NCBI GenBank assembly: GCA_003313425.1
Contig: NHZP01000002.1
Span: forward strand, 1,984,001 to 2,048,000
Source of the DNA: Pseudopyrenochaeta lycopersici
Taxonomy: Eukaryota; Ascomycota; Dothideomycetes; Pleosporales; Pseudopyrenochaetaceae
DNA: 64,000 nucleotides
Reading direction: 5' to 3'
The first letter of the stretch is position 1. Each line of letters opens with the position of its first letter. Under the pieces are notes generated by a model. That model did not search any database. It was not told where the DNA came from and saw only the letters and a program-made list of their open reading frames with translations. Positions 8,201-56,373 of the stretch are shown piece after piece. A program made the translations under genes and the position numbers.

Positions 8201-8519
8201 TTGACAGTATGCCATCCTACTTTTACTGTGGTAGACAACAGCCGGAAATACTGCTTGCCCCGGACTCCCAAACACACGCCGTAGAACGCCATGCCATGTC
8301 GAAACTTTTCACACGTTGCTAGCTCGGACCGGTTTCACATCCTGTCCGTCGTATTTTCATTGCGACCTCCTCGCCTTTGAATCCTCCTAGATTCGCGTGC
8401 AATTCAGTCACCTCAGACATCTCGTTGATGCTCTACGATCGCTCCGCAACCTTGTTCTCTACAAAATCATTAGCCGAGTTTCTTCAAATGCACTTGCGCC
8501 TCTTCATGTGCCACGAAGT
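5281..8519. other. Long intergenic region
   Basis: Apart from possible 5' exon/UTR sequence of the CASTOR-like gene near 5281-5430 and the 3' region of NOP10 below 8520, I find no convincing gene. Overlapping ORFs of 60-210 codons occur on both strands in this GC-richer stretch. They lack family motifs, and several start only at non-ATG codons. Confidence 0.5.
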
Positions 8520-8720
8520 TCAAGAAGGAAAATACGTACTCTGCTGTGTCAAGAGCAAGCCATATCTCTTCTTAATCGTGACGCGATGCCTCGAGTACTT
8601 GTCGTCGGGAGAGAAACGTGCCGGGTGTGCGCTCTTGCTGACTTCGCCGTCGATGACCTTCTTGAGTGTGTAAATGCGCTTGGACGGGTCCGCAGGATCG
8701 GGAATGTACATGAGATGCAT
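8520..8720 (-). CDS. NOP10: H/ACA ribonucleoprotein subunit NOP10
   Basis: Small H/ACA snoRNP core protein needed for rRNA pseudouridylation, acting in the nucleolus with the Cbf5/dyskerin, Gar1 and Nhp2 proteins. The 66-residue frame starts MHLMYIPDP and contains the near-invariant family core [28 protein letters not shown] and KKRYGLL, matching the usual length of about 60 residues. The C-terminal end is uncertain: just after LLTQQ there is a donor-like AGA|GTACGTATT and, about 75 nt further on, a GCTAATGATTTTGTAG acceptor. The last residues (STYFPS) could therefore be intronic and replaced by a short basic tail. It is divergently arranged with LCL2. Confidence 0.88.
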
Positions 8721-9068
8721 GCTAGGAAGTCGTCAGTTATGGTGGGTGGTGAATGACTAGAAACCGGGTAAACACACGTGACGGTAGCGACTTGCTGCGT
8801 TCAATTGGCAATAGGTAGGATTGGTATGCGCGGGCGACGGGCGAGGATCTGTTGTGCGGTCTTGAGGGTGTTCGCAAAATCGACGCTGGGTGAGGTGGAA
8901 ATTTGCGGAACTTTTTGCGGACCACCGAGCTGTCTGCCAAGCATGTTGGCACTGTTTGCACCCTCTAAACTCCACATCACCCAGTTCGCAACTCCGCTGC
9001 TCAGCATCAAGTCCTCGAGTCTCCTCACATAATTGTCGCATACGTGTCCCGACCTACAATCTGGCAAT
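8721..9068. promoter_or_regulatory. Shared divergent promoter region of NOP10 and LCL2
   Basis: 348 bp separate the start codons of two head-to-head genes. ORFs inside it have no recognisable family. A bidirectional promoter is inferred from the arrangement; I cannot point to a specific element. Confidence 0.45.
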
Positions 9069-9513
9069 ATGGCGCGACTTTACATGATTATTACAGTCAT
9101 TGCGACATGTTTCTTCGGCTCAAGTTTACAATTCGGTTTCTTTGACCAAATGTTTGGCGGCCAGCAGCAGCAACAACAACCTCAGAATGTGAGAAGTGAC
9201 AGCAGTTGGTACCAGGCACAGTATGAAGGCGGTATGTACATAGCTCCCCCACCTCATCTTTCCTCTTTTTCGCTCATACTATTGTTTTATGCATTTCCAC
9301 TTACACACTGTCTTCACAGCACAATGTACCCATTACCTCTGTCCTGGCACTCTGTCCTGTGTGCACTTTCCGCACCACTGTCCCTGCGCATGGGAAAGCG
9401 TAGAAGACAAGACCGAACTTGGGGAAGGCATAGCGATATGTGGGTCCAGGGGCGGTTGGGGAGAGGGCGAGTTTGCGAAGAAAGTTGATCTGGCGCGAAA
9501 GGGCCTGCTATGA
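9069..9513 (+). CDS. LCL2: LCL2-like ER/secretory protein (long chronological lifespan protein 2)
   Basis: Two exons, 9069-9231 and 9320-9513, with an 88-nt intron (GTATGT...TTCACAG), giving 118 residues. An N-terminal signal peptide ([21 protein letters not shown]) is followed by [16 protein letters not shown], a short glutamine run, then [16 protein letters not shown]. After the splice comes a cysteine-rich module ([25 protein letters not shown]) and the terminal [15 protein letters not shown] helix (here [11 protein letters not shown]). This order is diagnostic for fungal LCL2 proteins, reported in yeast to be linked to ER-associated degradation and lifespan. The splice produces codon GCA from G plus CA and keeps the Cys pattern. 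Confidence 0.92.
9232..9319 (+). other. Intron of LCL2
   Basis: GTATGT donor at 9232 and TTCACAG acceptor ending 9319. Splicing joins AQYEG to [10 protein letters not shown] and keeps the frame (163 + 194 nt of coding sequence). Confidence 0.88.
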
Positions 9514-28976: not shown

Positions 28977-31900
28977 ATGGAAAAGAAGTGGTCATTTACG
29001 GTATCACAGCACTTCTTACTTAAATCATCTAATAGTGGTTAACAATGTGATCAGAAGGTAAATATTCGCCATAGAATGGGTGACCTTGTGCTAATACAAT
29101 GATTTAGGACGTCAGTTTGCCCTTGAATATTGGGATATAAACTACTGCTAATACTACCGTGTCTGGTGATGTAGCTAGTAAGTGAACCTGCGACGACCGA
29201 AATGCGAGGTCGCTGCTAATAGTAGTGTCCCTCGTGGTATAGGATGTAAATTAACCTGTAAAGACAAAGATGCAACGCTGATACTAATACGGGGGTTCCT
29301 GGTGATGTAGGACGTAAGTTAACTTGCAAGCACTAAGTTATGAAGCCCGCTTCTAATACTAGTGTGCTTGATGGTGTAGATTGTAAGTTGAATAGTGGGA
29401 GATAAGGACATAGGGCTGCTACTAATACTAGTGCTTCTGGTGATGTAGCAAGTATGTTGAATTTTGAAAGGCTAAGATGCGAAGCTGCTGCTGATGCTGG
29501 TGTTTCTGATGATGTAGAATGTGAGTTAACTTGCGAAGACTGAGATACGAGGCTGCTGTTAATGCTGGTGTCTCTGGTGGTGTAGCGAGTAGGTTAACCT
29601 GCGATTGAGATGTGAGGCAGCTACTGATGCTGGTGTTTCTGGCGATGTAGATTGTAAGTCAGCCTCCGAAGACTAAGATGTAAGGCAGCTACTAATGCTG
29701 GTTTGTCTGGTAATGTAGCCAGTACGTTAATTTGCGAAGACTAAGATACGGGGCTGTTACTCATGCTGATGTTCCTGGCAATGCAGATTGTAAGTCAACC
29801 TGAAAAGACTGAGATGGAAAGCTGCCGCTAATGTTAGGATCTCTGGTGGTGTAGCCAGTGAGTTAACCTGCAAACACTGAGATACGAGACGACTGCTCAT
29901 ATTAGTGTTTCTGGTAATGTAGCCAGTAAGTCAACCCGCGAAGACTGAAATGCGAGGCTGCTGCTAATACTGGTGTTCCCAGCTTGTAAGTTAATCTGCG
30001 AGGACTGAAATCTTGGCTGCTTGCTAAGCTAATATGTCTGCTCATGTAGGGTGTAAGTTAATTAGTAAAGACCAAGGTCTGAGGGCTGCTGCTAATACTA
30101 GGTTCTTGGGCGTAGGACGTAAGTTAATGTATACGCACTGAGATCCGAAACCGCTGTTAATAGTATTGTGCGTCGTGTTGTAGTTTGTAAGTTAAACTAC
30201 AGGACAAATATATAGGGCTGCCGCTAACATTAGTACGTCTGGTCATGTAGCAAGTACGTTTATCTTTAAAAATCAAGATGCGAGGCTGCTGCTAATACTA
30301 TTCTGCCTGGTTGGGAGTAGATTGTAAGTTAGCCTGCGAAGACTGTGACACGAGGCTCGTGTTAATGCTAGTTTGTTTTTTGATGTAGCGAGTAAGTAAA
30401 CATCTAAAAACTGAGATACGAGGCTGCTGCTAAAACTAGTGTTTCTGGTGGTGTAGCCAGTAAGTTGACATACGAAGACTGAGACGTGAGGCCACTACTA
30501 ATGCTAGTGTGTTTGGTTGTGTAGATTGTAAGTGAGCCTGCAAAAACTGAGATGTGAGGCTCCTGCTAATGCTTTTGATGGTGTAGCCAGTAAGTTAGCG
30601 CGCGAAGACTGGGATTTGAGGCTGTTGCTAATGCTAGTGTGCCTGGTGGTGTAGCCAGTAAGTTATCATGCGAAGACTGAAATGTGAGACTGCTGCTAAG
30701 ACCAGTGTGTTTGGTTGTGCAGATTGTAAGTTAGCCTACGAAAACTGAGATGTGAGGCTACTGCTAATGTGTCTGGTGGCATAGTGGGTAAGTTAAACCG
30801 CCAAGACTGAGATGTGAGGCTGCGGTTAATACTAGGATGTTTGGTGGCGTAGTGGGTAAGTTAACCCCTAAATACTAAGATGTGAGGTTACTGCTAATGC
30901 TAGTGTGTTTTGTGGCGTAGGACGTAAGTCAACCTGTGGATAGTAATATGAAAGGCTGTAGTCAATGCTAATGTGCTTGGCGGTGTAGGGTGTAAGTTGA
31001 ACTGTGAAGGCTGAGATGCGAGGCTGCTACTAATACTGGTGTGTCTGGTGGCGTAGACCGTAAGTTAACCTGTAAATACTAGCAGGCAAGGCTGCTGCTA
31101 ATGCTAATAAGTCTGCCGGCGTAGGACGTAAGTTGGACTGCGAAGACTCAGATGCAAGGCTGCTGCTAACACTAGTGTGTCTGGTGGCATAGTGGGTAAG
31201 CGGACTTACGAAAGCTGAAATGCGAGGCGGCTGCTAATACTAGTATTTTGGGTGGTGTAGCCAGTAAGTTTAACATGCGAAGACTGAGACACAATGCTGC
31301 TACTAATGCTGGTATGTTTCGTGGTGTAGGAGGTAAGTTGAACAGTAAACAATGACGTGCAAGGTTGCTGCTAATGCTAGCGTGTCCGGGTGCTATAGAG
31401 GGTAAGTAGACCTCCGAATTGCTTCTTTACATGCGTCCAAGACAGACCGATAAGTGACTGGGGGTTAGTACAACGATTGGGATCTCATTTTTGACAATTA
31501 TTTTGCATTCCGTTTTCTATCGGATTTAACATTATGCGCGCTACCTACGGCGGTCGGCCTTTGTCCCTGCTGCAGTGCCATTGCTTCTAAACCTCACACA
31601 AGTGCTGCTTACATCGTCAGTCTTCCTGATATACATGCTTCTGCGGAAAATTGTTCGATCTGCAAAATGCTCCTCAAATTATTTCCGCACTGCAACAGCG
31701 ATGATGATGAAAAGATATACCGCACACCCTCAGCACTCAGAATAGGAGCAGGAGGCAAGCGTATTGTTCGGTTTTGTGTAGATCCAGGTAAGTGCCCACA
31801 ATCCCCGCTTTACACTATACAAAACGAATACTTATATCATATTCTTGCCATAGTATACGCTGCTGATACTGATATGCCCCCAATCGGTCGGCCAATCCTA

Positions 31901-33421
31901 CCTGAATCCGACAATCCTGCACGATTTGAACTGCTCCGTGCATGGATTCATCAGTGTAACGTGTCCCACGACTGCAACAAGCGCCGCGATGAAGCCAAGC
32001 CAGCATTGCCGACGAGAGTTCTCTATGTCGGTGATACAAAGAGTTCAGATTACAATTCAGATTTTTTGCGTTTGATCTGTTCCCCAGAAACAAACAGGCA
32101 AGAATATGTCGCATTATCTCACTGCTGGGGGGATCTCTCGGGTGAAGAGAAGAACGAGTTCTGTACAACCAAGGATAATATTGGCCAGCGGTTGAAAGGG
32201 TTCAGTCTCTCTAAATTACCAAAGACATTTCAAGACGCTGTTAAGGTGACCCGTGAACTTGGAGTCCTATATCTTTGGATCGACTCACTCTGCATCATCC
32301 AATATGGGGACCATGGTGAAGACTGGAAATGCGAATCTGGCCGGATGGACACCGTCTACTCGCACGCTTACTGCGTAATAGCTGCAACCGCGGCGGTTGA
32401 CTCTAATGCAGGTTTCCTCGAGCGTGACAAAAGCACTGAATACATCTATGTTCAAGACGCTTCAGGGAAGCAGTTTTATATTTGCAATGATGTCGATGAT
32501 TTTGACAACGATGTGGGCAGGGCTCACCTCAACACACGCGCATGGGTAATGCAAGAAAGAGTTTTGGCGCGACGGACTATCCACTTTAGTGCTAGTCAGA
32601 CATACTGGGAGTGTGGCAAAGGGGTCTACTGCGAGAACCTTACCAAGCTAAGAAGGTAAGAGTTTTATAGCACACATGGCGACAGCTTCTAATAAGGCAT
32701 CTTAATCCCCAGCCCTACTACAAACAGGTACTTCACGCTCGATCCGAAGTTCCCAAGTCGGCTCTTGCAATCCGGCAAAAAGCGTACTCTCAATTGCATT
32801 TCCTTTCTGTTCCAAGAATATTCAAAACGGAACCTTAGTGTACTGAGCGACAGATTTGTGGCAATATCTGGATTAGAGGAGCGCATTGCAGGCGCATTAG
32901 GGGGCCAACACAGATACGGAGTCTTCCAGCAGTACCTTCACAGGAACCTCCTATGGCAGGCATCCAACAACCTGGAGCCGATCGCGTACACGAAGCAGTA
33001 TGTGCCATCTTGGTCATGGATGGCATATAGCGGAGGCATTCAGTTCATGGATATACCCTTGAAAAATATTGAGTGGATTGATCACCTCCGGTTCGATGAG
33101 GAGCGCGAATATGAGCATGCCATTATCGCCAACCTGTGGACATTTAATGATTGTACGATGCGACTCTACGAGGCACAGTGTACAGTCTTCGGTTCTAATG
33201 GAGCAAAACTAGGGTGGATACAGTATGATGTTGAGGGCGGTAAAGATCTCCGAGAAGAGCAATGTGTTGTTGTAGGAACAAAAAGAAATAGCACTTTGGA
33301 GGAATACTATATCCTAGTCGTCAGGTCCACTAGTGTAGATGGTGAATACAGGAGGGTTGGCGTTGGGCTGATACAGAGTGACTGCGTGGTAGGACAGAGG
33401 ATCAACGTGCGAATCGTGTAA
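28977..33421 (+). CDS. HET-domain (heterokaryon incompatibility) protein with a single-codon micro-exon array at its 5' end
   Basis: The body is certain. A frame open from 31469 carries LCALPTAVGLCPCC, ENCSICKMLLKLF and a classical HET domain: EYVALSHCWGD, LPKTFQDAVKVTRELGVLYLWIDSLCIIQ and YSHAYCVIAATAA, then RAWVMQERVLARRTIHFS. A normal intron (32656-32712, 57 nt; alternative acceptor at 32727) joins LRR to SPTTNRYFTLDPKF, and the stop is at 33421. HET proteins trigger cell death on non-self recognition in fungi. The frame has no ATG between 31469 and 31667. An acceptor TTAG ends exactly at 31468. Upstream, ATG 28977 opens an eight-codon exon (28977-29000, MEKKWSFT), followed by 36 three-nucleotide exons separated by 50-67-nt introns (see the array entry), all in phase 0. 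The full model is 675 residues. A conservative model would start at ATG 31667 (565 residues). Confidence 0.78.
29001..31468 (+). repeat. Tandem intron array: 36 three-nucleotide micro-exons separated by ~65-nt intron-like repeats
   Basis: The ~68-bp units read GT(A/G)AGT, then GACTGAGATGCGAGGC, then TGCTAATACTAG, then ~16 nt ending in TAG or CAG, and then exactly three bases before the next GT donor. Triplets by first base: 29055 AAG, 29108 GAC, 29175 CTA, 29243 GAT, 29311 GAC, 29380 ATT, 29449 CAA, 29518 AAT, 29586 CGA, 29651 ATT, 29719 CCA, 29787 ATT, 29855 CCA, 29923 CCA, 29983 CTT, 30050 GGT, 30116 GAC, 30184 TTT, 30251 CAA, 30321 ATT, 30389 CGA, 30457 CCA, 30525 ATT, 30587 CCA, 30655 CCA, 30723 ATT, 30785 TGG, 30853 TGG, 30921 GAC, 30989 GGT, 31057 ACC, 31125 GAC, 31193 TGG, 31261 CCA, 31330 GAG, 31399 AGG. 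None is a stop. Introns vary (50-67 nt, mostly 65) but the gap is always three. The first introns (29001-29054, 29058-29107) and the last (31402-31468) are diverged from the repeat. Confidence 0.88.
32656..32712 (+). other. Conventional intron inside the HET gene
   Basis: Donor AAG|GTAAGA, branch TTCTAATAAG and acceptor CCCCAG. An alternative acceptor 15 nt downstream (AAACAG ending 32727) is also in frame, so a five-residue alternative is possible. Confidence 0.85.
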
Positions 33422-38984: not shown

Positions 38985-40319
38985 ATGCTACCTGAATTTG
39001 CATGCAACTTTGCTTCTATACTACTACATTCGAAATGGAGCCGTGCAATAGACAGAAAGCCATGCGTAACAATCGAGGGAGAGGAACGCGTTCCATTCCA
39101 TGCCTACGTCCAGGGTGGATTAGGTGTAGTAGGCCAAACTTCACATTTTAAAAGCTTTCAAATGCTGCCATTGGAGCTCCAGACGCACATCCTTACCTTT
39201 TGTACTAGCGATGTACTCTTTAGGGTCATGCAAGTTTCGTCTACTCTTCGGGTAGAGGCAAGTAAACTGTTTTGGGGAAATACGGATACCTATTACCTAA
39301 TTCAGGCGCGCTGGCTACTTGAAGGGGGCTACCCTGGTTATACCGACAGTGACATGGGGTTTCTAGCGCTGGTTGAGAATGTTCAGGTCGATTATGACCT
39401 AGCAAGCGAAAGTCAAGTATGTCTATTCCGCGACAACACAGTTGGGATCCGACAAGACTGTGTAGAGAAGTTCTGGAGCAGCCTATTACAACGATGCCCA
39501 CGAGTTAAGCGGATAATTATTAGCCAGTATTGGCCATCTTCATCGTGGCATTATGATAAGCAGGTAGTCCCTAAGCCGCTAAGGGTGCTTATTGAGTCGT
39601 GTCCAGATGGGATTAGTGGACTTGCGTTTATAGTAGAGAATAAAGCAGATTGGTTTGGAGATGGAGATGAAAGGGAAGGAAGCACGCACAGGTGGCAACG
39701 CTCAGTGTGGGAGGAGCGTAGCAGGCAAGGATGGATAAAGATTAAGCAAAGACAAGACTGGGTTACTGTACTTGCCCCACCGAAACAATTTAAGGGGATA
39801 GTAGGACAGTGGGCAGAACTGAACTATCGCGCGGGTCGTGTTACATTAGAGGAGAATGGGCTGTGGCCTCAGGTTATCGAAGCAGTAGGGTCGAATTTCG
39901 CGAAGCATGGGAGGGGTATGGAGTTTGCATGCCCGTCCATGGACTGTATGGTAAGTTTTAAGAGCGTAGAGGCATGGAAGATACATGCAGCAGAGTTGCA
40001 TAATCAAGAGTGGTATGGAGAGCAGGGCTGTAGAATTGTACCTACGAAGATGCGGGAAAGATTTAAAAGAAGAGTAAGGGAAGTAGAGCTTGAAGCAGAA
40101 GGAATTAGAAGAGCAAGTCAGGAGATGAGAGCGCAATGGAGAGAGTGTAACAATGGGGAACGAGGAGTGATTATAGAGGAATGGTTGGAACAGACTAAGA
40201 CAGACGAGTTGTGGGAGTTAGGAGATGGGACGACAGGCAGTCAACTACTTGCACACTACATGCAATGGATGAGTGAGGTGAGGGCTAAGACTAGGTTTAG
40301 CTATAAGACCGTATACTAA
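38985..40319 (+). CDS. F-box-like protein with a C-terminal C2H2-like zinc finger
   Basis: Uninterrupted frame of 444 residues. About residues 58-90 read MLPLELQTHILTFCTSDVLFRVMQVSSTLRVEA, a fungal F-box-like start (LPLE...IL...V..VS..LR), followed by KLFWGNTDTYYL. About 307-340 contains CPSMDCMVSF...HAAELH, spaced like a C2H2 finger. A coiled, charged C-terminus (RERFKRRVREVELEAEGIRRASQEMRAQWREC) follows. F-box proteins usually recruit SCF ubiquitin ligase substrates; the role here is unknown. It is intact although surrounded by RIP-degraded repeats, which argues for maintained function or recent arrival. The first 55 residues may be an over-extension. Confidence 0.78.
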   Translation: MLPEFACNFASILLHSKWSRAIDRKPCVTIEGEERVPFHAYVQGGLGVVGQTSHFKSFQMLPLELQTHILTFCTSDVLFRVMQVSSTLRVEASKLFWGNTDTYYLIQARWLLEGGYPGYTDSDMGFLALVENVQVDYDLASESQVCLFRDNTVGIRQDCVEKFWSSLLQRCPRVKRIIISQYWPSSSWHYDKQVVPKPLRVLIESCPDGISGLAFIVENKADWFGDGDEREGSTHRWQRSVWEERSRQGWIKIKQRQDWVTVLAPPKQFKGIVGQWAELNYRAGRVTLEENGLWPQVIEAVGSNFAKHGRGMEFACPSMDCMVSFKSVEAWKIHAAELHNQEWYGEQGCRIVPTKMRERFKRRVREVELEAEGIRRASQEMRAQWRECNNGERGVIIEEWLEQTKTDELWELGDGTTGSQLLAHYMQWMSEVRAKTRFSYKTVY

Positions 40320-40432
40320 TTTTCGGGGTTGGTGTATTAGAGTAGTTAAGTTTTACGTTTTTTTATTATTTTAATAGCAACTCGCAGGCGGGAAGGCAGC
40401 AGCATAGATAGACATTTGGTTGGCCTACGCTG

Positions 40433-40636
40433 ATGCAAACATGGGATGACTACTTCCGGCGGTGGGAGCAGGCGATTGATATAGACTGCCTTGACCCGGA
40501 CCAAGTGTGGATTAACATTGGCAAGGATGTTTGCGCACCCCCATCTCTCTTATGGTACCAACATCCAGGCATCCAGCCCGCAGAAATCTACCTCTGGAGG
40601 CCTTGTTGTCTAGGGGCATATTGGCAGTGGTCCTAA
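40433..40636 (+). pseudogene. Short ORF, probable gene fragment
   Basis: 67 codons from ATG 40433 with protein-like composition rich in Trp and Cys (WDDYFRRWEQAIDIDCLDPDQVW, GKDVCAPPSLLW, LWRPCCLGAYWQW), ending at TAA-rich AT sequence. It resembles a truncated exon of a larger, possibly repeat-associated fungal protein. I cannot name the family. Confidence 0.3.
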
Positions 40637-40639
40637 CAT

Positions 40640-42323
40640 AGGCCTACGCCTAGGTCTACGCTGCGAAATGTATATTAAACTGCTATGCTCCACGATGCAG
40701 CTAGGATAACTGTCTTAACCGCACGTTAATCGCCTAGCAGTAAATAAGAGCTAGTATATAGTTAGTTCTATATAAGCAAGAAGGAGATTTTAATTACTAT
40801 GAAGTTATTTCTATTCTAAGATAAAGCTTTAGAGAGCCTAGCTATTAACCTAAAAGTCTGCGTAAGTTAGTAGAAAGTAAGTAGTTTAGAAAACTATTAG
40901 TAAAAGGTACTTAAGAAATCTTATTTTAGAAGTAAAGTACGCTATATAATAGTAATTTAAGGGTTCTTCTAGAAGTCCTTTAGTACGTAAGAAGAGTACT
41001 ATATAATATTAATACTTACCTTACGTATATAAGAATGCCCCTAGAATAGTAGTAATTAAGAACGTGTAGTTAAGATTCTTACTAGGCTAGACCTATTCTA
41101 GCATATCCCTATAGCCTCTTATCTCTAATTTATATAGATAAATATTAATAAGTTTACTACTAGCTTTAAGTACGTACAGAGCCTAGGATTATATAACTAT
41201 ATATTATAAGAGTATAGCTAAGTTATAATTATATTCTTATAGTTATTAAAATATAGCTATAGAAGTTATTAGATCTAGTGTAAAATTACTTTATAAATTA
41301 ATAAGTAAACTTATAAAAGTACTAGTAAGAAAATATATAGACTTAGCTTCTTAAAAATAGTAGCGTAATTTATAAGTACTACTAGTTAATACTAAAGAAT
41401 AACTAGACTTAGTTTATATTTTATAAAGAGCTCTTAAGATATAGTTTATTTAGTAATATATATATAGTAGAATTATTTATAGTAAGATAGTAAGTAATCT
41501 AAGGAGCTAAAGATAACTTTATAAAGTTAGAGATACAAAGTGAATAGTTAAAGAGCTATAGATTAGCGCCTTTAGTATAGAAGTATATACTATAGTATAT
41601 AATATAGATATACGTATAATATTTCTAGAAAGACGTGTTATTATTAATAGAAAGCTTAATTAAGGCTAAATTTTTATAGTAATATAGCGTAAGGTAAGTA
41701 TATACTTTATAAAGAGAATTTAGATATAATACTAAATAGCTCTTAGCTATATTAGCTAGTAAGTAGGAATAATAGAGCCTATAAAGATCTTAATAACTTT
41801 ATTAACTTCTTATAAGACTTTAATAATAAAAGAAGCTAAAAGTATTAAAATACTAGAGAATATTAAGTACTATATAAGTATTATATAAAGATTATAGAGA
41901 CTTAGTATAATAAAAAAGAGGTTAAATAGTTTTCTAAGAAAGTAAAGACTCTTTTTCTTACTATAAATTAGGTAGTACTATATCCTAATTATACTATATT
42001 CTAGTAGCATATAAAGTAATACCAGAGGATATAGCTCTCTATATACTATTATTAGGTCTAAGCTAAAACTACGTTAAAGTAAAATATTAGATAGGTATAA
42101 GTAGTACAGGCGTAAGAAGGCTAGGCTTAGTTAATTAGGCGAAGCTAGCAATAAGTACTAAATAGCGTACCTAAAGACTCTAAAGACGTAGAGGTAGATA
42201 TAGAGAAGGCGTAAGAGAGCATTATGCGGAAATAGCAGAGATACTGTAAGGCAGTTAACACGCACAGTTGTGACGGTCTTAGTTAAAGTAACTTAATTTA
42301 AAAGGAAATAGATAAAATAGTAG
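40640..42323. other. RIP-degraded repeat sequence, unclassified
   Basis: Very AT-rich with dense TAG/TAA/TTA trinucleotides in every frame, as expected of a repeat destroyed by RIP. No terminal repeats were found, so the element class is undetermined. The outer Gypsy element is inserted at its right edge. Confidence 0.5.
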
Positions 42324-42328
42324 ATACC
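42324..42328. repeat. Target-site duplication (left) of the outer Gypsy element
   Basis: ATACC immediately before the left LTR, matched by ATACC at 56332-56336. Confidence 0.85.
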
Positions 42329-42717
42329 TGTGAAGAATCTTAAAAGCTATCAGTGAGGATAGCCAATAAGATTGCAAGGTTGGTTCTCCAGGATAGAGTG
42401 AGGGACTAGATAGAAGGGGGTTTAATACTAAGACAGTAAGAGGGCGCTTCTGTAAAGAGTACTAAGGGTTAAGAATAATTAGTATTACTATTACTATACT
42501 ATAGAGTATAATATTAAGTTAAACACACTAGACTATAAGGATCCATTATGGTGATCTATATACATAGAGGTTATGCATGTTACTCAGTGTGCTCGGTGTG
42601 CTCAGTGTCACTAATCAGACTAATCAACTGAGCACGTCACGTGACTTCAGTTGTTGTCTAATACTTTGTAAGGTCCAGTTGGGGCCTCTGGGACAGGGTC
42701 CCAGCAGGATTGTAACA
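42329..42717 (-). repeat. LTR (left) of the outer Gypsy element
   Basis: 389 bp, starting TGTGAAGAATC and ending GTAACA on the + strand. It is the 3' LTR in element orientation. The U3 part contains an inverted repeat around GTGCTCAGT/ACTGAGCAC and the palindrome GTCACGTGAC. Confidence 0.9.
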
Positions 42718-43390
42718 CCATCCCCCTCCTATCCTAGCGCTGTCCTTAGTGCTTATTATATAACGCGAGCGTTTCCTACTTCTTACTGCATTATGTCTCG
42801 CCATGCCTAAATATCTACAAGTGTCTAGCACTATTCGTCGCTAACGTCTCTATAATTTTATTAACTCCTTTAGGGAAGCTATAGTTTAAAAGTGCGCGAC
42901 GTACGCAAAGTATAATTAGGTGTGTAAGGTCTATGTTTGTTCTAGGAAATATAGTAAGTGTCTGCGTTAAGGGTAACGTTATAATGTGCAAGTTACAGAG
43001 TCTAAGTTTAAATAATTAGTAGATTAGAAGACGAAGCTTTAGGAGCAGATAAAAGAATCTAGGGATACATAAGAAGTTATAATAAAGGCGCATAAAAAAG
43101 CTTTAGAGGAGCTGCGCGTTGCTTAAGCTCGCGAAGAGCGGTTACAATAATAAATAGATTTAATTAATTAGCGCGCGGAGGAAGTAATAGCTGTAGAGGA
43201 ACAAGATATTAGGGAGTAAGAAGTAGCAGAAGCCTTATTACCTAAAAACGCTTCTAATGCCCTTAAGTTTAGTTTATCGCCTAGTACTTAGGGTGCGTTT
43301 AAAGGCTTCCCTCTTAAGTATTAGGAGGTCCTAGCTAGTAATAGGCTACTAGTAGCAGGTCCGTTAGTTTCCTTTAGCTCTTAACGTTTC
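42718..43390 (+). pseudogene. Antisense accessory ORF of the outer Gypsy element (Cys-rich, coiled coil), degraded
   Basis: Opposite in sense to the element, about 42825-43300 reads as a protein interrupted mainly by TAA/TAG at likely former Gln codons. Fragments are RLYNFINSFREAIV, KCATYAKYN, VCKVYVCSRKYSKC and RYNVQVTESKFK, followed by KAHKKALEELRVA and AREERLQ (coiled coil). The Cys spacing suggests a former zinc-binding module. Antisense ORFs in the 3' part of fungal Gypsy elements are known to recur; their function is unclear. Confidence 0.5.
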
Positions 43391-46300
43391 TTAAGGTTTA
43401 TTTACTTCTTCTTTTTCTTTTCCTCCCTTTCTTAGTATTCTCTAATTTTTTCTTAATAGTTTCTTAGATTTTCTAGTAGTTCCTACGTACTCTCTACGCT
43501 TAGGTACTCTTTCTATTTAACTAGGTAGCTGAAGCTTAGTTCTAGGTCGTTAACTCTTCTATTTTGTTAGTATCCTTAGATTTTCTTAACTTTAAACTTA
43601 TTTTCTTCTTCTAGTTTATACTAGAATATTTTCTATAATAGTATAGTAAAGTTAGCTAGTTCTAACTTAGAGATATAGAAGCGTAGGTAGATCTTTATAT
43701 CTAGTAGTAGCTTAAGTATATAGTTTACTAGTCTATTCTATTCTTTAACTAAAAATAGTCTAACTTTAACGTAGTTAAGTTCTTTACTTAGTTACTTATT
43801 ACGTAGATTTTTTATAAGTAAGTATGCTTTATCCCCCTTCTTTAGCTAAGGTACTATTTTTCTTTTCTTATTTTAGTAGGAAATACTGTTACGTTATACT
43901 TTCTTAAGATTCTCTTAGAGTTATTTGTATATTTTCTTTATTTCTTTAGCTATTTTTATAGCTACTTTAGCTTTTCTGCTAGGATATAACTTTATAAAGA
44001 GATTAGGGTGTCTCCCGTAGTTAGTAAAGAATAGTGTTTTTCTAGTTAATTCTAATAATTTGTTATTATAGGCTAGTTATACTATTAGTAATAGTAAAAC
44101 CTAATTATTTTATTATTAATTACTGTAGATCCTTAGGTAGGTTTTTATTATTTTGTTTATTCTTTCTGTCTGTCTGTCTATTTATAGGTAATAGGCTGTT
44201 AATAATTTTCTTTTTATCCCTATCGCGGCTATTAATGTAGACTAGAAGTTAGATATAAAGAGCTTATCTCTATTACTAATAAATAGACTTAGGTATACTG
44301 TAATATTATATTAATCTGTCTAGAATAATAAACGCTAGTTATTCTATATTATAGTTATTTCTAAATAGTATTATTTCTGCTACTTTTATAAACCTACAGA
44401 CTATATTAAAGATAGTATTATACTTAATTCCTATTACAGGATCTTTAGATAGTAGTAACCCTATTATAAAGTCTATAGAAATGTCTACCTAAGGTTTATT
44501 AGGTAGCTCTATAGCTTACATTTCTCTGTATAGTGCGTAAGTACTATATTTATTTTTATAATAGTCTGCGCATTTTTTAATAAACTATTTAATCTTAGCC
44601 TTTATATTCTTAAAGCTATAGTGTCGCTGTATTAATTCTATTATTCTTTTAATTCCTAGGTAACTATATACTAGGTTATTATAGTATTATTAGATAATTA
44701 CTTCTTATAATTCTTTAGGTACTTTAGACGTAATTATTATAGTGTTGTTTAATAACTTATTAGGTCTTAAGCTTCTATCCTAGTTAACTTAAAGGATAGC
44801 ATTACTAACTATCGCTTTTGTTCCTGCAATGTCTAATCTGCAGCTAAGAGCGTTAGCTCTACTGTTATCCTTTCCTAGCGTATATATAATCTTAAACTTA
44901 TATTATCCTAATATTTTAGCCTATCTAACCTATCTTTAGTTTAAGGTCTTAGTAGTAGTAAAGTTAACTAAGTTCTTATAATCTATAAATATTGTAAGAT
45001 CTAAGCAGCTCTCTACGTAGATCTACTAGTAGTTAAAGGCGTTAATAACTGCTATAAGCTCCTTATTATGCACGTTGTAGCGTTCCTTAGGGTCTATAAA
45101 TTTCCTAGAGTAGTAGGTAATTAGGTACTATTTCCTATTACGTTCTTATTTTACTATTACACCTAGTGTAAGGTCTAAGGTATCTGTTTTAAACTGTAAG
45201 AGTTCTCCTATTTAGAATATAATTAATACTAGTAGTATAGTACAGGCTTCCTTAAGTATCTAGAATACTTTTCTTTATTTATTTCCTTATTCCTATTTTA
45301 TCTATTTTCTTATAAGTTTAGTAAGTAGGATAGATTTCTTAGAGAAGTCTTTAATAAATTATTAGTTAAAGTTAATAAATCTTATAAATAACTATATATC
45401 CCTAACTATTTTAAGTTTAGGCTATTCTTTTACTACTCTTATTTTTTCTTCGCTTATCTTTACTCTGTATGCACCTACTATGTATCCTAGGAATTTAACT
45501 TCTTTTTTATAGAATTTATATTTCTTAGGTTTAAGCAGTAAACTAAATCTTCTTAGACAGGTAAGAACTATTTTAACGTGCTTAACGTGTTTCTATAGAT
45601 TATTAGAGTACATAAGGATATTATTAAGGTATGCGATAATAAATATATCTAGGTGTTCTCTTAACATGTTATTAATAAGTACCTAGCATGTAGCTAGTGC
45701 ATTAGTAAGACTAAAGGGTATTACTATATACTTATAGTAGCTGTAGCGTATTCTAAACGCAGTCTTCTATTCCTCGCCTTCTTTTATATAAATAAGGTTA
45801 TATACTCCTCTTAAGTCTAATACTATAAAGACTTTTATAAAGGCTAGTTAATCCTATAGTTCTACTATATTTAGTAGAAGGTATTAATTCTTTATTATAA
45901 TATTATTAAGTTTCTAGTAGTTAATATATAATCTTAACCTCCTATTTTTCTTTAGTATAAATAGTATAGGGTATCCTGCTAGCAATTATAATTCTCTAAT
46001 AAATCCCTTTTTTAAGTTTATCTTAATATATTCGCGTAGGGTTTTAAGTTCTTTTTCTAATAAACTGTAGATTAGGCTAAAAGTTAGTTACTTTCCTTTT
46101 TATAGGATAATCTTATAATCCTAGGGTTAATATTTAAGTAGTGCTTTTATAGTTATCTCTTCCTAAAAGAGTAACTTATATTCTTTATACTTATTAGGGA
46201 TTATAGAGTTACGCTTTACTCCTTAACTCTAGCTTATTAGTCTAAGGGCCTCCTATTAGTACCTACTAAGTTAGACCCTTATATCTTAAGGTTGTCCTTA

Positions 46301-46700
46301 TTTAAAGTAAGGATTCCTATTATTATCTTCTTATCTACTTAGGCACTTAGCTGCAGCGCAGGTTTGCTTGTAGTTGCGTCTGTTCTACAGTATTTAAACA
46401 AGAACTTTTTCTTTTTCTAATCTATGTCTAGACTATATTCTCTTAACTATAGGAGTCTTAGTATTACGTTATGTTGTAATAGTCTAAAGACGTCTAGGTT
46501 AATTATTTCCCTATAGTTCTAGATAATAAGTTACATGCTCTATACTTCGTGTGTAATTATAGACTCTAATAGCATTAGTTATCTATTAGCTACTATTAAT
46601 AGATATAGTACTAATTTTAACAATAGGATAAGACTAGCTTATTCTATCGCTCGCGCAGAAATATAGCTCTATTATACTCTAGAATCTACTAGTGCCTTTA
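43391..46700 (-). pseudogene. Degraded pol (RT, RNase H, integrase, chromodomain) of the outer Gypsy element
   Basis: Same order and sequence as the pol region of the inner copy, read on the minus strand, with stops throughout. The RT motif region near 45600-45650 and the chromodomain region near 43450-43560 are still recognisable by comparison with the + strand copy. Catalytic Asp pair YxDD is changed to YLNN. Confidence 0.75.
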
Positions 46701-46705
46701 TCTAG
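46701..46705. repeat. Target-site duplication (left) of the inner Gypsy element
   Basis: TCTAG before the left LTR, repeated at 53667-53671. The duplicated bases lie in the outer element, in the pol region just after its protease motif. Confidence 0.88.
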
Positions 46706-47098
46706 TGTTAGGATCTGAAATCCTAGACAGGGAGGGAGAGCCTCAGGTACTGACAGCCATTCAGGAAGCGCCAGTGTTCCACTCTGTCACGCGTCACGTA
46801 ACCGCTCGCTCTGCTAAGGACGAGCGCTCGCAGCGCTCGTGGCGAGCGCGACGAGCGCGTTATGTATATAGATTACTATAATAAACCCTTATAGCTTATT
46901 ATATTTAACTTAATATTATACTCTATAGTATAGTAATAGTAATACTAATTATTCTTAACCCTTAGTACTCTTTACAGAAGCACCCTCTTACTGTCTTAGT
47001 ATTAAACCCCCTTCTATCTAGTCCCTCACTCTATCCTAGAGAACTAACCTTATAGTCTTATTAGTTATCCTCGCTAATAGCTTTAGAGATTCTTTACA
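46706..47098 (+). repeat. 5' LTR of the inner Gypsy element
   Basis: 393 bp, TGTTAGGATC...TTTACA. It contains a GC-rich cluster of GAGCGC/GCGCTC palindromes (about 46822-46862) in otherwise AT-rich sequence. The downstream part (about 46880-47098) is closely similar to the corresponding part of the outer LTR. Confidence 0.92.
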
Positions 47099-47130
47099 CT
47101 TTAAACACCCTTAAGATAAGTAACACTAAG

Positions 47131-50100
47131 ATGGAGACTACTAACTATCATACCATAAGGCCAGGCAACGCTGTCGCCAAACCGGACCTCTTCTATAGGG
47201 ATCGGTTCAAGCTCAAGGACTGGCTACTCTAGTTCAACCTGTTCTTCAAGTTCAACGCAACCACTATAGACGACGACGACTAAGCAGTACTTATGTTAAG
47301 CTACATAAGAGGCGAAGCTGCCAAATAGGTAAAACCCCACCTAGTCAAGTACATAAGTAACAAAGAGAAGCCTTAAGAACTTATTATTATGTTCAAAAAT
47401 ACAGAAAGGTTTAAAGCATGCATGCGCTAAGCGTTTAGGCTCCTGAACGTAGTAACTATTACAGAGCGCAAGATCTAAAACATGCGACAAACTAGGTCTA
47501 CGGCCAACTACACCAACAAATTTCTAAGTTACGCCAGACAGACTAGTTAGAATAACGACACCCTAAAAACTATATATAAACAAGGCCTGAAAGCGGACGT
47601 CTAGACTAAGCTTATGCGTACAGGCACGAAAATCATAACACTAGACGACCTAATTAATAAAACTATCTAACTAGATATAGAGCTCTATAAGCTCTATATA
47701 CGACTTAGAAGATAACTACTAGGATAAACAAAGGAAGATAAGAAACCCCAGAAAGATTATCGCAATAAGCTAAATAACAGTCGCCTACAACATTAGTATT
47801 AACCATAAGGAGTGCCCGGACAGTACCTGTTAGGGGGCCCTAAGGCAATGCATCTAGATAATCTTAATAAGGAGAAATTAGGTAAGGGCGGGAAGAAAAA
47901 AGAAATAACCTACTTTAACTGTAATAAGAAAGGCTATATAGCTAAAGACTATAGGAGTAAGAATAAGGTAACCCCCTAGATTAATATAATAGTAGTAAAA
48001 GAAGAAAACAGCGACGACAAAACATAGGAAGTTATCGCAACCTAAGAGGAAGAGGCTTAAGACGCAGAGACGCTGCAGCTACCTCTCCTAGAACCTACTA
48101 AGAAAGGGATTCCAGGAACCTAGTATAGTAATAAGGAAGAAGAGAGCAGCAGCTCCCTATCTCTAGTCTATAAAGATGCTAAGGAAGACCTTAATAATAC
48201 TATAGTACTCTTAACTAAGGAACAGAAAAAGGAAAACTTCTAGAAATAATATTAACTAGGAACCCTAAGGCCATTAACGCCTACAGAGGCGGAAAAAGAT
48301 ATTACAGAACTTAACTACTAACTACACGCGCAACACATGTACAAAGCATAATATATTAACGCGTTAACCCTAGAAGAGTAGGAAGCAGCCATAAAATAAG
48401 GAATAAGTACAATTATTCTAGCTAAACAAGCGATGCAAGACATATTGCGGGAATATTACTGTTACTCTAAATATTATATAAAGGTAATACAAGAATAGGC
48501 GGAGAAAGCTAAAGAAGCATAGCAACCCGCAAGCGTTAGGGACGCACCACAGAAACTTCGACAAGCTAGATAAATATAGGCACTAGAACTCCTAGTAGTT
48601 AAGACCCCTAAATATATACTACGACGCTAAATAATACTACTACTAACACAGGAAGACGCTTTCTATATACTAAACACTAAGAACCTAGTATAATAAGAGT
48701 ATCTTTAAGTTAACTCCTACAGCAAAATTATACTTATAGACAGTAAGAAGTAAGATATTTATACACAGCTTAAACAATAAATACATTAGGAGGATAATAA
48801 AGAGAATGTTAACCCTCTCTAGCATCTTATAGAAGAAGAAGCCTAAGAAATATATAAGCACGCTAAGGCGGCTTAGACCCTATATACTATGCGTAAAGGA
48901 CTACAGAAACTAGTACTAGACTACTTGATAGATCTACGTAATAAGCGACACGGTGTTATCTACTAGTCCTTTTGTACCACAGACCTGTACGCGATCTATT
49001 ATTTAAGTAAAACGGAACAAAGATACTTCTCTTACTTGTTTTACTAATGTAAATACTAATAGTATAATTATTATAAAGTTAAATGCGATAACTACCTATA
49101 GGATAAGAGGACCGTCCTCTACTTTCTAGGAAATAATAACCCTGCAGCTACTATAGCGATGCAGCTAGTCTTTAATAGAGAATGTAATTAGCGATAATAG
49201 CAAACGTGCCTTAACTTAGATTGCCTTAAGCATAAAGACATTAAGACACTAAACGGGTATTAGGAGGAGCCTTTTTTAGGGTCACGCCTACTAATAGGTA
49301 AGAACCGCAAACCCTATGCGCAATAGGCACACAAGGACTCCTTAAGCTAAATATTAAGCTTAATAGAAGCTAGATAAAGGCACTAGTAGATTCTAGAGCA
49401 CAACAGAGCTATATTTCTGCGCGAGCGATAGAATAAGCTGGCCTTATTCTATCGTTGAAATTAGTACTATATCTATTAACAGTCGCTAATAGACAACTAA
49501 TGCTATTAGAGTCCGTAATCACATACGAGGTACAGAGCGTGCAACTCATTATCCAGAACCATAGGGAAACGATCGACCTAGACGTCTTCAGACTATTACA
49601 GCATAATATAATACTAGGACTCCTATAGTTAAGAGAACATAGTCCAGATATAGATTAGAAAAGGAAAAAGTTCTTATTTAAATGCTGTAGAACGGACGTA
49701 ACCACAAGTAAGCCTACGCTGCGGCTAAGTGCCTGGGTAGATAAGAAGATGACGATCGGGATCCTTACTTTGAATAAGGACAGCCTTAAGACACGAGGGT
49801 CTGACTCAGCAGGAACTAATAAGAGGCCTTTAGACTAACAAGCTAGAGTTAAGGAGTAAAGCGTAACTCTAGTAATCCCTAACAAGTATAAAGAATATAA
49901 GTTACTCTTTTAGGAAGAGATAACTATAAAAGTATTACCTAAGTATTAACCTTAGGATTATAAGATTATCCTATAGGAAGGAAAGTAACTAACTTTCAGC
50001 CTAATTTATAGTTTATTAGAAAAAGAACTTAAAACCCTGCGCGAATATATTAAGATAAACTTAAAAAAGAGATTTATTAGGGAATCACAGTTACTAGTAG

Positions 50101-52660
50101 GATACCCTATATTATTTATACTAAAGAAGAATAAGAAGCTAAGATTATGCGTTAACTACTAGAAACTTAATAATATTACAGTAAAGAATTAATACCCTTT
50201 ACTAAATATAGCAGAACTATAAGATTAACTAGCCTTTGTAAAAGTCTTTACGGCATTAGACTTAAGAGGAGCGTATAACCTTATTCGCATAAAGGAAGGT
50301 AAAGAATAGAAGACCGCGTTCAGGACACGCTACAGCTACTACGAGTATATAGTAATACTTTTTAGTCTTACTAATGCACTAGCGATATACTAGGCACTTA
50401 TTAATAATATGTTAAGGGAATACCTAGACGTATTTATTATTGTATACCTTAATAATATCCTTATGTACTCTAATAATCTACAGGAATATATTAAGCACGT
50501 TAAAATAGTTCTTGCCTACTTAGGAAGATTTAGTTTACTGCTTAAACCTAAGAAATGCGAGTTCTATAAGGAGGAAGTTGAGTTCCTAGGATATACAGTA
50601 GGTACACACAGAGTAAAGATAAGTAAAGAAAAAATAAGAGTAGTAAAAGAATAGCCTAAACCTAAAATAGTTAAAGACATACAGTTATTTATAAGATTTG
50701 TTAACTTTAACTAACAGTTTATTAAGGACTTTTCTAGAAAATCTATCCTACTTACTAAACTTATAAGGAAAGATATAAAATAGGAATAGGGAAACGAATA
50801 AAGGAAAGCATTCTAGATACTTAAGGAAGCCTGTATTACACCTCTAGTGTTAATTACATTTTGAATAGAAAAACCCTTATAGTTTAAAACAGATGCCTTA
50901 GACCTTGCACTAGGTGCAACGGTAAAATAAGAACGCAATAGGAAATGGCACCTAATCGCGTACTACTTAAGAAAATTTATAGACGCTAAGGAACGCTACA
51001 ACGTGTATAATAAAGAACTTATAGTAGTCGTTGATGCCCTTAACTACTAGCGAATCTACGCAGAGAGTTACTTAGATCTTACGATATTTACAGATTATAA
51101 GAACTTAGTTTATTTTACTACTACTAAAACCTTAAACTATAGATAGGTTAGATAGGCTGAAATGTTAGGATAATACAAGTTTAAGATCGTGTATACGCTA
51201 GGAAAGGATAACAGTAGAGCTAATGCTCTCAGCCGCAGAACAGACATTATAAGAATAAAAGTAATAGTTAGTAATGCTATCCTTTAAGTAAACTAGGATG
51301 GAAGCTTAGGACCTAATAAGTTATTAAATAACACTATAATAATTACGTCTGAAGTACCTGAAGAATTGTAAGAGGTAATTATCTGATAATACCACGATAA
51401 CCTAGTACACGGTTACTTAGGAATTAAGAGAACGATAGAACTTATACAGCGACACTACAGCTTTAAAAATATAAAGGATAAGGTTGAACGGTTTATTAAA
51501 AAATGCGCGGACTGTTAAAAAAATAAACACAGTACCCACGTACCATACGGAGAAATGTAAGCTATAGAGCTACCTAACGAACCTTAGGCAGACATTTCTA
51601 TAGACTTTGTAACAGGGTTACTACTATCTAAAGATCCCGCGACAGGAATTAAGTATAACGCTATCTTTAATATAGTCTGCAGATTTATAAAAGCAGTAGA
51701 GATAATACTATTTAGAAATAACTATAACACAGAACAACTAGCGTTTGTTATCTTAGACAGATTAATACAATATCACGGTATACCTAAATCTATCATTAGT
51801 AATAGAGACAAGCTCTTTATATCCAACTTCTAGTCCACATTAATAGCCACGATAGGAACAAAAAGAAAGTTGTTAACAGCCTATCACCCACAAACGGACA
51901 GATAAACAGAAAGAACAAACAGAATAATAAAAACCTACCTAAGAATCTACAGCAATTAACAGCAAAATAATTAGGTTTTATTACTACTAATAGCACAACT
52001 GGCCTATAATAATAAATTATCGGAATTAACTAGAAAGACACTGTTCTTTGCTAACTACAGGAGACACCCTAATCTCTTTATAAAGTTATATCCTAGTAGA
52101 AAAACTAAAGTAGCTATAAAAACAGCTAAAGAAATAAAAAAAGTATATAAATAACTCTAAGAAAATCTTAAGAAAGTATAACGTAACAGTATTTCTTACT
52201 AGAATAAGAAAAGAAAAATAGCACCTTAGCTAAAGAAGGGGGATAAAGCATACTTGCTTACAAAGAATCTACGCAACAAGCGACTAAGTAAGGGACTTAA
52301 TTATGTTAAGGTCAGACTATTTTTAGTTAAAGAACGAAACGGACCTATAAATTATATACTTAAGCTACCGCCAGATATAAAAATCTACCTACGCTTTTAT
52401 ATCTCTAAGTTAGAACTAGCTAACCCTACTACACTATTACAGAAAACATTCTAGTATAAACCTAAAGAAGAAAACAAGTTTAAAGTTAAGAAAATCTAGG
52501 GGTACTAGCAGAATAGAAAAGTTAACGACCCGGAACTAAGCTTTAGTTACCTAGTTAAATAGAAAGGGTACCTAAGCGTAGAAAGTACGTAGGAACTACC
52601 AGAAAATCTAAGAAACTGCTAAGAAAAAATTAGAGAATATTAGGAGAGGGAGGAGAGAAA
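47131..52660 (+). pseudogene. Degraded gag-pol of the inner Gypsy element
   Basis: Gag begins METTNYHTIRPGNAVAKPDLFYRDR, a capsid-type start (GDRKKFDAFL-like region follows), with stops at former Gln/Trp codons. A remnant CCHC knuckle (YFNCNKKGYIAKDYRS) is at about 47911-47958 with one Cys changed to Tyr. The protease motif at 49389-49400 reads DSRA for DSGA. The RT motif YLNN is at 50445-50456 (catalytic YxDD lost); RNase H follows at about 50880-51240 (FKTDALDLALGA, TDYKNL). The integrase has HHCC-like and DDE segments at about 51390-52100 with one catalytic Asp changed to Asn (ISNRD at about 51801). The chromodomain is at about 52500-52615 (SYLVK-KGY...ST-ELPENL). Confidence 0.88.
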
Positions 52661-52744
52661 AAAGAAGAAGAAACAAACCTAGAAGGTAGAAGCCTGCCTA
52701 GGCTCCGCCAGGGTTACTAGTTAATCTAAGGCGCCTATAGTAGA

Positions 52745-52996
52745 CTATACTATCAGAGAGAAACTAACTAAGGCATCAACAGCCGGACAGGGAGCTTCCT
52801 TAGCAAACTCCAGCTCTCTATTGTCGTGCATCTCTAACGCAAGATACAAAGCCTTCTTCCGCGCCCTTTCTTCTGCCTGCTTTAAAATCGCCTTATTCTG
52901 AAGCAACCGCGCAATCACGGTTGCTAGCAACTTCTCGTTATTATCTACCTTCTTCTAGTACTCGTCACGAGTTTTGTCTAGAGAAGCCTAGGACAT
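52745..52996 (-). pseudogene. Antisense accessory ORF of the inner Gypsy element (coiled coil)
   Basis: Starts at ATG 52996 (MS, stop, ASLDKTRDEY, stop, KKVDNNEK). It then reads open for about 60 codons: LLATVIARLLQNKAILKQAEERARKKALYLALEMHD, and so on. The two stops are TAG. It is an Ala/Glu/Lys-rich helix, antisense to the element and located between the chromodomain and the 3' LTR. It does not correspond to the antisense ORF of the outer copy, so the two elements carry different 3' accessory modules. Confidence 0.5.
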
Positions 52997-53273
52997 ATTC
53001 ACATATAGTTTCCCTAAACGAGTGTATTTAGTATATTTTAAATTTAAATTTAGCATAATGTAATAAATAATATTATCCCTAAAATACTTATTGTAAGTAA
53101 ATTTAGCGATAGTTTTAGCACAGAGGATTTTGTTATAAAGACGCAGGTTACGAATCTAGGACTTAGACAATATTTTGTCTTACATTACTACAGACGCGGG
53201 GTACGCTACCTTTAAGCTAATCTAGCTATATATTACGTGATTTGAGACGAATCCTAAAGAAGGAGAGGGATAG

Positions 53274-53666
53274 TATTAGGATCTGAAATCCTAGACAGGG
53301 AGGGAGAGCCTTAGGTACTAACAGCTATTCAGGAAGCGCTAGTGTTCTACTCTATTACGCGTTACGTAACTGCTTACTCTGCTAAGGACGAGCGCTTACA
53401 GCGCTCGTAGCGAGCGCGATGAGCGCGTTATGTATATAGATCACCACAATAAACCCTTATAGCTTATTGTATTTAACTTAATATTATACTCTACAGTATA
53501 GTAATAGTAATACTAATTATTCTTAACCCTTAGTACTCTTTACAGAAGCACCCTCTTACTGTCTTAGTATTAAACCCCCTTCTATCTAGTCCCTTACTCT
53601 ATCCCGGAGAACTAACCTTACAGTCTTATTGGTTATCCTCGCCGATAGCCTTAGAGATTCTTCACA
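53274..53666 (+). repeat. 3' LTR of the inner Gypsy element
   Basis: 393 bp, the same length as the 5' LTR. The terminal TG is mutated to TA, and scattered C/T and G/A differences from the 5' LTR fit RIP. Confidence 0.92.
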
Positions 53667-53671
53667 TCTAG
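53667..53671. repeat. Target-site duplication (right) of the inner Gypsy element
   Basis: TCTAG, identical to 46701-46705. Confidence 0.88.
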
Positions 53672-55942: not shown

Positions 55943-56331
55943 TGTAAAGAATCTTAAAAGCTATTAGTAAGGATAGCTAATAAGATTATAAGGTTAGTTC
56001 TCTAGGATAGAGTAAGGGACTAGATAGAAGGGGGTTTAATACTAAGATAGTAAGAGGGCGCTTCTGTAAAGAGTACTAAGGGTTAAAAATAATTAGTATT
56101 ACTATTACTATACTGTAGAGTATAATATTAAGTTAAACACACTAGACTATAAGGGTCTATTGTGGTGATCTATATACATAGAGGTTATGCATGTTACTTA
56201 GTGTGCTCGGTGTGCTCAGTGTCACTGATCAGACTAATCAACTGAGCACGTCACGTGACTTCGGTTGTTGTCCAATACTTTGTGAGGTCCAGTTGGGGCC
56301 TCTGGGACAGGGTCCCGGCAGGATCGTAACA
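55943..56331 (-). repeat. LTR (right) of the outer Gypsy element
   Basis: 389 bp, aligned over its length to 42329-42717. It is the 5' LTR in element orientation. The first bases read TGTAAAGAATC rather than TGTGAAGAATC, a G-to-A change. Confidence 0.9.
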
Positions 56332-56336
56332 ATACC
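56332..56336. repeat. Target-site duplication (right) of the outer Gypsy element
   Basis: ATACC, identical to 42324-42328. Confidence 0.85.
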
Positions 56337-56373
56337 TCTTACCTTTAGTGGAGAGGTACTACCTAAATACATA

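Follow-up and report, generated by a model that had tools for sequence, protein, structure and literature searches.

A tandem array of predicted single-codon exons at the 5′ end of a HET-domain gene in Pseudopyrenochaeta lycopersici

The 5′ part of a HET-domain gene of Pseudopyrenochaeta lycopersici consists of 36 tandem single-codon exons in phase 0, which are predicted to be spliced and likely give the HET protein a variable peptide at its N-terminus. We put the probability of this reading, which is drawn from DNA sequence, at about 0.87. HET domains are linked to fungal self/non-self recognition. The gene lies in a stretch of 64,000 nucleotides of contig NHZP01000002.1, which we call the window.

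Results

Path tracing from a 24-nt exon beginning with ATG gives an unbroken phase-0 chain, which passes through 36 AG-NNN-GT junctions between 29001 and 31468 and ends in an intact HET gene (Table 1). An earlier note on this DNA had proposed this anatomy, and the tracing bears it out: the path contains exactly the 36 three-base gaps between AG and GT that had been claimed, the unit spacing of 53–70 nt agrees with the claimed intron lengths of 50–67 nt, and the coordinates and phases of the 24-nt ATG exon and the HET frame, both described as phase 0, hold. GT is the donor in 36 of 36 cases, 26 of them GTAAGT, and AG is the acceptor in 36 of 36, as TAG in 32 and CAG in 4. None of the 36 triplets is a stop codon, as the note had said, though the tracing ignored stops, having used no stop-avoidance criterion. 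A branch site had been claimed before each acceptor; a YTRAY branch-like site is present 10–42 nt ahead of the exon in 33 of the 36 units, and in the remaining 3 the claim fails. The predicted peptide of the array is KDLDDIQNRIPIPPLGDFQIRPIPPIWWDGTDWPER. To Tandem Repeats Finder (TRF), the array is a tandem repeat with a period of 68 nt, 32 copies and 65% matches.

Table 1. Features of the array and of the HET gene that follows it, in window coordinates.
Feature	Position	Strand	Remarks
Exon 1	28977–29000	+	ATG GAA AAG AAG TGG TCA TTT ACG = MEKKWSFT; phase-0 donor at its end
First intron	29001–29054	+	GTATCA...CAG; outside the repeat family
Tandem array	29055–31401	+	36 triplets between AG and GT; 35 intron-like units of 50–67 nt
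Last intron	31402–31468	+	GTAAGT...TAG; phase-0 join of the array to the HET exon
HET exon 2	31469–31787	+	starts YNDW..FDNYFA, a motif common to paralogues and homologues
Ordinary intron, predicted	31788–31853	+	
HET exon 3	31854–32655	+	holds most of the HET domain PF06985
Ordinary intron, predicted	32656–32727	+	alternative acceptor possible, with the next exon from 32713
Last HET exon	32728–33421	+	contains the stop codon

The HET exon starting at 31469 opens YNDWDLIFDNYFAFRF. Its first 66 codons contain no in-frame ATG, and the first one is found at 31667, where the earlier note had placed it. Joining the three HET exons gives a protein of 604 residues, in which PF06985 scores 104.7 bits (cut-off 22.5, E 6.9e-30). 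HET was the only Pfam domain in this protein; NACHT and ankyrin domains were looked for and not found, and thus this gene stands outside the nank gene family of Tuber melanosporum, which is considered below. A search of solved structures gave no relative at E 0.001, the best match being 2lgh at E 0.077. Elsewhere in the window, 40000–58000 is an AT-rich block (GC 0.326, TA/AT 1.83, (CA+TG)/(AC+GT) 0.44), with index values that we take to be the signature of repeat-induced point mutation (RIP).

The window's own genome assembly (62.7 Mb, 188 contigs) was searched with the array DNA, giving 17 further rows among the best candidates, some of which are parts of one array. The pattern TAG-NNN-GTAAGT, with a spacer of 3, has 270 matches genome-wide and 0 for the reversed pattern. 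All 270 fall inside the extracted array loci, nearly all ahead of HET exons or their remnants. Spacers of 2 and of 4 have 0 matches genome-wide (reversed controls, 1 each), and a spacer of 6 has 3, which are near-identical copies of another dispersed repeat. Allowing CAG acceptors adds 21 matches, all in one array, C13. Among GTAAGT sites of the extracted loci that have a preceding YAG and a branch-like site, the spacer is 3 in 314 cases, 2 in two and 6 in one; another 38 GTAAGT sites have no such upstream elements. The three-base junction pattern is far beyond chance.

We examined 18 loci and anchored and traced 13 of these. A stop-free path of one-codon exons runs onward from exon 1 in 13 of 13, with 36 units in the window, 32 in L009, 32 in L010, 9 in L013, 33 in L011, 66 in L012, 10 in L014, 26 in L016, 9 in L018, 68 in C4, 26 in L054, 9 in L056 and 68 in C13. 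The path reaches the HET exon in phase 0 in 11 loci, or 9 if two near-copies are set aside, with an AAG acceptor needed in C4 and L054; in L056 and C13, it was traced from exon 1 through the units. TAA, listed as the first triplet of L018, is the donor region of exon 1 and not a unit. The first exons of the paralogues (12 besides that of the window were typed and translated) are alike as judged by eye, with MENKWSFT, MEQETWEDDLFT, MGQEMWEDGLFQ and MSQEGWDDSMFE among them. Those of L018 (MSKGEIA) and C13 (MK) are short and unlike the rest, and the exon-1 region of L011 has no ATG at the usual place, an upstream start being seen by eye only. GC stands in place of the GT donor in 4 of 383 units (one in L011, two in L014 and one in C13); it is a variant that spliceosomes accept.

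Five loci were left out of the tracing. L015 has exon 1 and 8 units with no HET exon seen downstream, L017 and L020 are cut at the 5′ end, and L021 is short; by eye, the latter has, around 3700–4000 (C64), what resembles the end of exon 1, then a very short array with the one-codon exons AAG, GAG and TGT, and a truncated YNDW HET exon. The fifth, L019 (C68:173500–182500), is by eye a degenerate copy of an array gene, in which the start of exon 1 and tryptophan codons have been lost by transition-type decay, likely through RIP. HET copies without an array were also seen by eye. C41 and C25 appear to be truncated at the 5′ end, and L059 (C58:99801–103000), a 44% relative, has an in-frame protein-kinase-like stretch before its version of the HET motif, DWTFVPDNDFA. 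The structures at C41, C25 and C58 suggest that the array takes the position of an N-terminal module. In L016, an ORF of pogo/Fot1-like transposase type was noted by eye at 8419–9501 (C43), downstream of the HET gene.

The introns form consensus families of 65 nt (the window group), 67 nt (C4, L054) and 68 nt (C13). In alignments of the cores across families, the pair of window and C4 gives P 0.006 and the other four tested pairs give P 0.09–0.26. Three families with largely unrelated cores have the same GTAAGT, the same 3-nt exon and a YTRAY site at a median of 23–25 nt before the exon, which suggests more than one origin or deep divergence.

The triplets behave as codons. Counts were made on 11 distinct arrays of 9–68 units, L010 and L013 being dropped as near-copies of L009. 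All 383 triplets are sense codons, of 45 different kinds, and no stop is seen where 17.3 are expected from column composition. When each combination of array and triplet is counted once, there are 0 stops in 123 against 5.3 expected (Poisson P 0.005). The same calculation in control intron windows is neutral, with 914 stops observed and 908 expected. A previous count, made on 12 arrays chosen slightly differently (L020 was dropped as well as L010 and L013), gave 0 stops in 365 triplets against 17.8 by shuffling. GTN triplets, which would make a second donor overlapping the first, number 8 against 29.6 expected; by distinct combinations this becomes 6 against 11.7, a marginal depletion (P 0.055). 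The [AC]AG triplets number 5 against 11.5 expected, and triplets ending in AG show no depletion by distinct combinations (4 seen, 4.5 expected). Across the 383 triplets, serine occurs once, threonine twice and cysteine never; R, E, L, G, D, Y and F are common. The most homogeneous arrays use one codon per amino acid: in L012, E is GAA in 21 of 21 cases and R is CGA in 27 of 27, and in L009, D is GAT in 11 of 11. Several codons per amino acid occur in C13 (leucine 4, glycine 3) and in L054 (arginine 3, leucine 3).

Columns of the unit were ranked by variability in the 8 arrays with at least 16 units of modal length, the copy L010 being set aside. The most variable column lies inside the triplet in 8 of 8 arrays, and the adjoining AG and GT are invariant. 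In four of the eight (the window, L011, C4 and L054), the first three ranks all belong to the triplet; elsewhere its columns rank 4/1/20 (L009), 2/1/8 (L012), 1/3/4 (L016) and 1/2/6 (L055). With only 2–4 modal units, the ranking is uninformative for L018, L056 and L015, the last of which has another column in first place. Diversity in L012 is 0.57, 0.64 and 0.30 at the three triplet positions against 0.065 in the intron interior, and among 48 pairs of L012 units with an identical downstream intron the triplet differs in 33. Two pairs of units in L011, identical at 130 of 130 flanking bases, carry GGT and CGA. We read these data as introns that are homogenised and codons that would be held apart by selection, which may favour diversity or may preserve one particular peptide. 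At p<0.05, linkage to the triplet is seen for 0 of 12 columns in L012, 13 of 51 in C4, 11 of 58 in L055 and 8 of 27 in L011, so that in the last three arrays the triplets are in part tied to the intron bases beside them. Within the introns, too, linkage fades over tens of bases, which suggests short-tract exchange.

Near-identical segments on three contigs (L009, L010 and L013) show how arrays differ. L009 and L010 are 99.7% alike. Over about 4.4 kb they have 13 differences, namely one of 96 triplet bases (a synonymous change), 11 intron sites (one an indel) and one base of the HET exon; a further difference lies where the compared segment was cut. L013 has 23 units fewer than either, with the frame intact. 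A fast local mutator was considered as the diversifier; with one synonymous triplet base against 11 intron sites between L009 and L010, it is not supported, and this pair gives no sign of fast diversification still under way.

First exons resembling those of the paralogues also occur in proteins of other fungi. The annotated protein P0001 (Phaeosphaeriaceae sp. PMI808) begins MENKWSFT, and the first exons of P0015, from the same fungus, and of P0014 (Lepidopterella) read MDQETWKDSLF and MGAEKWKDSSFQ. In the annotation of P0014, nothing stands between exon 1 and the HET exon, a model that would also fit absence or skipping of the whole array. A motif scan found the translated intron repeat in 5 of the 120 homologues listed, with 5 copies in P0001, 4 in P0015 and single weak copies in P0024 (Macroventuria anomochaeta), P0070 (Decorospora gaudefroyi) and P0079 (Melanomma pulvis-pyrius). 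These five public HET proteins appear to be garbled by read-through of an array. The annotated models of the homologues show no splicing of the kind proposed here; P0001, P0015 and P0024 resemble garbled read-throughs, and P0012 and P0016 are predicted homologues that start inside the HET exon. Phaeosphaeriaceae and Macroventuria belong to the Pleosporales and Lepidopterella to the Mytilinidiales, all within the Dothideomycetes. A search with the N-terminus of P0014 found only itself among 21 candidates, and one with the intron read-through of P0001 also found only itself.

Two homologues give weak hints of a spliced product. In P0013, whose 619 residues come from a contig of 2,106 bases and which is therefore probably spliced, the HET motif is preceded by VQDRDRVVRYEER, a weak hint at the transcript level; the annotated P0041 has NNYGQEYYHYRERES in that place. 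P0032 has an exon-1-like motif followed by 44 residues, and its predicted model has pLDDT <50 over residues 1–69. These 44 residues include a stretch that resembles a WW domain, and P0032 is thus not clean evidence.

Discussion

The earlier note held that the array is a string of one-codon coding exons and not a minisatellite. Its positive half is strongly supported by the avoidance of stops, the spacer of 3, the hypervariable triplets and the conserved flanking exons, with splicing predicted from these signals. The negative half does not stand in that form, since loci that are nearly identical can have 32 units in one case and 9 in another, and the array is thus both an exon array and a tandem repeat. 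If it were only a minisatellite, it would lie within a single large intron, splicing would connect exon 1 to the HET exon without intermediate exons, and the splice-like sites would be a by-product of homogenisation. The tandem repeat called by TRF, the homogenised units of some arrays and the annotated join in the Lepidopterella gene are all in keeping with that. However, homogenisation predicts a triplet as uniform as its neighbours, while the triplet is the most variable part of the unit; it also leaves the missing stops among the triplets, beside neutral intron windows, and the genome-wide absence of spacers 2 and 4 without an explanation, and we consider it very unlikely. A start of the HET gene downstream, at the ATG at 31667 or later, with the array an unrelated satellite or a regulatory RNA, would agree with the 66 codons that lack an ATG and with the two homologues, P0012 and P0016, that begin within the HET exon. 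We give this hardly any credence, as in the paralogues the motif W..(T)FDNNFA and the reading frame extend right up to the last acceptor, and exon 1 is conserved.

Two further explanations accept the splice sites and differ on what the codons are. Introner-like mobile introns might have been inserted at every codon boundary, the triplets then being old coding sequence. This would account for unlike triplets beside near-identical introns without diversifying selection, and for the several codons per amino acid in C13 and L054, and introner-like elements are known in Dothideomycetes according to an excerpt of one paper (PMC4457414). The single codon per amino acid in L012 and L009 fits duplicated units of intron plus codon instead, and the difference of 32 against 9 units shows unit-wise change, so that insertion seems to us highly improbable. 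Alternatively, the one-codon exons are real and the peptide is of little weight: the row of introns would set splicing delay, export or the dosage of the HET protein, and the codons need only avoid stops and splice ambiguity. The depletion of GTN and of stops fits such mere tolerance, and array length does range from 9 to 68. Tolerance alone, however, predicts neither the near absence of serine, threonine and cysteine beside common R, E, L, G, D, Y and F nor the excess of codon diversity; we think this explanation unlikely, if deserving of attention.

We prefer the reading in which the spliced codons form a peptide that matters. By intron definition, each intron of about 65 nt would be removed, adding one codon at a time. 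Because the exons are one codon long and the introns are in phase 0, any unit can be gained, lost or skipped without a shift of frame, even though the repeat periods themselves (68, 70 and 71 nt) cannot be divided by three. The introns would be homogenised by unequal exchange and short-tract gene conversion, and selection would keep the codons varied. The putative peptide, of 9–68 residues and rich in R, E, L, G, D, Y and F, would stand in the place of the different N-terminal module of other HET proteins and may tune recognition, or how the cell-death HET domain is activated. Further isoforms could arise if units are skipped. Tentatively, and with somewhat less than even confidence, we propose that the array is an immune-diversity device, a one-codon-per-exon N-terminal tail whose peptide may be rewritten by unequal exchange over generations and by skipping within one cell, and that three largely unrelated intron families may have converged on this codon-cassette design.

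The earlier note knew of no described gene of this form, which is contradicted by the nank genes of Tuber melanosporum. According to passages of three papers (PMC4986451, PMC3689799, PMC10197012) that cite Iotti et al. 2012, these NACHT-ANK genes or NLR sensor domains are diversified when their codon-sized, 3-bp microexons, described as multiple or as numbering in the tens, are alternatively spliced. As presented in those passages, the nank case shares with ours the tens of 3-bp exons and a fungal gene family linked to non-self recognition. It differs in that the truffle genes are NACHT-ANK NLRs whose microexons are said to diversify the sensor domain, with reported alternative splicing, whereas here the genes are HET genes of a member of the Pleosporales, the exons are N-terminal and splicing is predicted. 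The tens of consecutive 3-bp exons seen here (36 in the window and 9–68 in the other 12 loci) are present as splice-signal anatomy only. Set against the Tuber case, codon hypervariability beside homogenised introns has been measured here in the HET arrays. By analogy, the HET arrays would work as the nank microexons do. The abstract of a 2024 paper (PMC11121469) calls functional microexons undescribed in filamentous fungi, from which it seems that the Tuber case is little known. Literature searches for HET genes with microexon arrays found no report. Thus what looks new is the gene family, the position, the lineage and the codon-scale evidence, the 3-bp exon form itself having a precedent.

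Other systems resemble the array in part. The exon arrays of Tetrahymena likewise consist of tandem exon–intron units with fixed exon length and a single phase, expanded by unequal exchange, but their exons are 90 bp long, in phase 2 and encode a repeat domain, against 3-nt phase-0 exons here. The hypervariable WD40, ANK and TPR repeats of fungal NLRs, as outlined in part of one paper (PMC4986451), likewise evolve in concert while diversifying selection acts on their codons; in these the unit is coding, whereas ours is nearly all intron with one putative codon each. Near-identical introns have been multiplied in fungal genomes as introner-like elements and repeated stwintrons, to judge from excerpts of two papers (PMC4457414, PMC8469720), while the units here are in tandem with codon-sized exons. 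In stwintrons, introns are nested and nothing is retained between them; full signals in each unit and a stop-free triplet argue against nesting here. Both kinds of element are dispersed over unrelated genes. Isolated 3-bp microexons, as in Drosophila homothorax and in RPS24, are spliced too, and the excerpts concerned (PMC7392893, PMC12686416) present them as single exons in ordinary genes and not in arrays. Tandem units are what a minisatellite would have, but here the triplet columns are singled out, GT and AG are invariant and stops are avoided.

A 2023 review (PMC10197012) names, in the part on this subject, the forces that diversify HET genes as an open question. If confirmed, the array would provide a testable answer to it, and would extend an oddity of truffle NLRs to HET genes in another fungal class. 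It would be a repeated and selected design, represented in a single genome by 383 codons from 11 distinct arrays, with traces in other Dothideomycetes. It would test how short an exon the spliceosome handles many times over, and would explain the garbled public gene models of some such HET genes.
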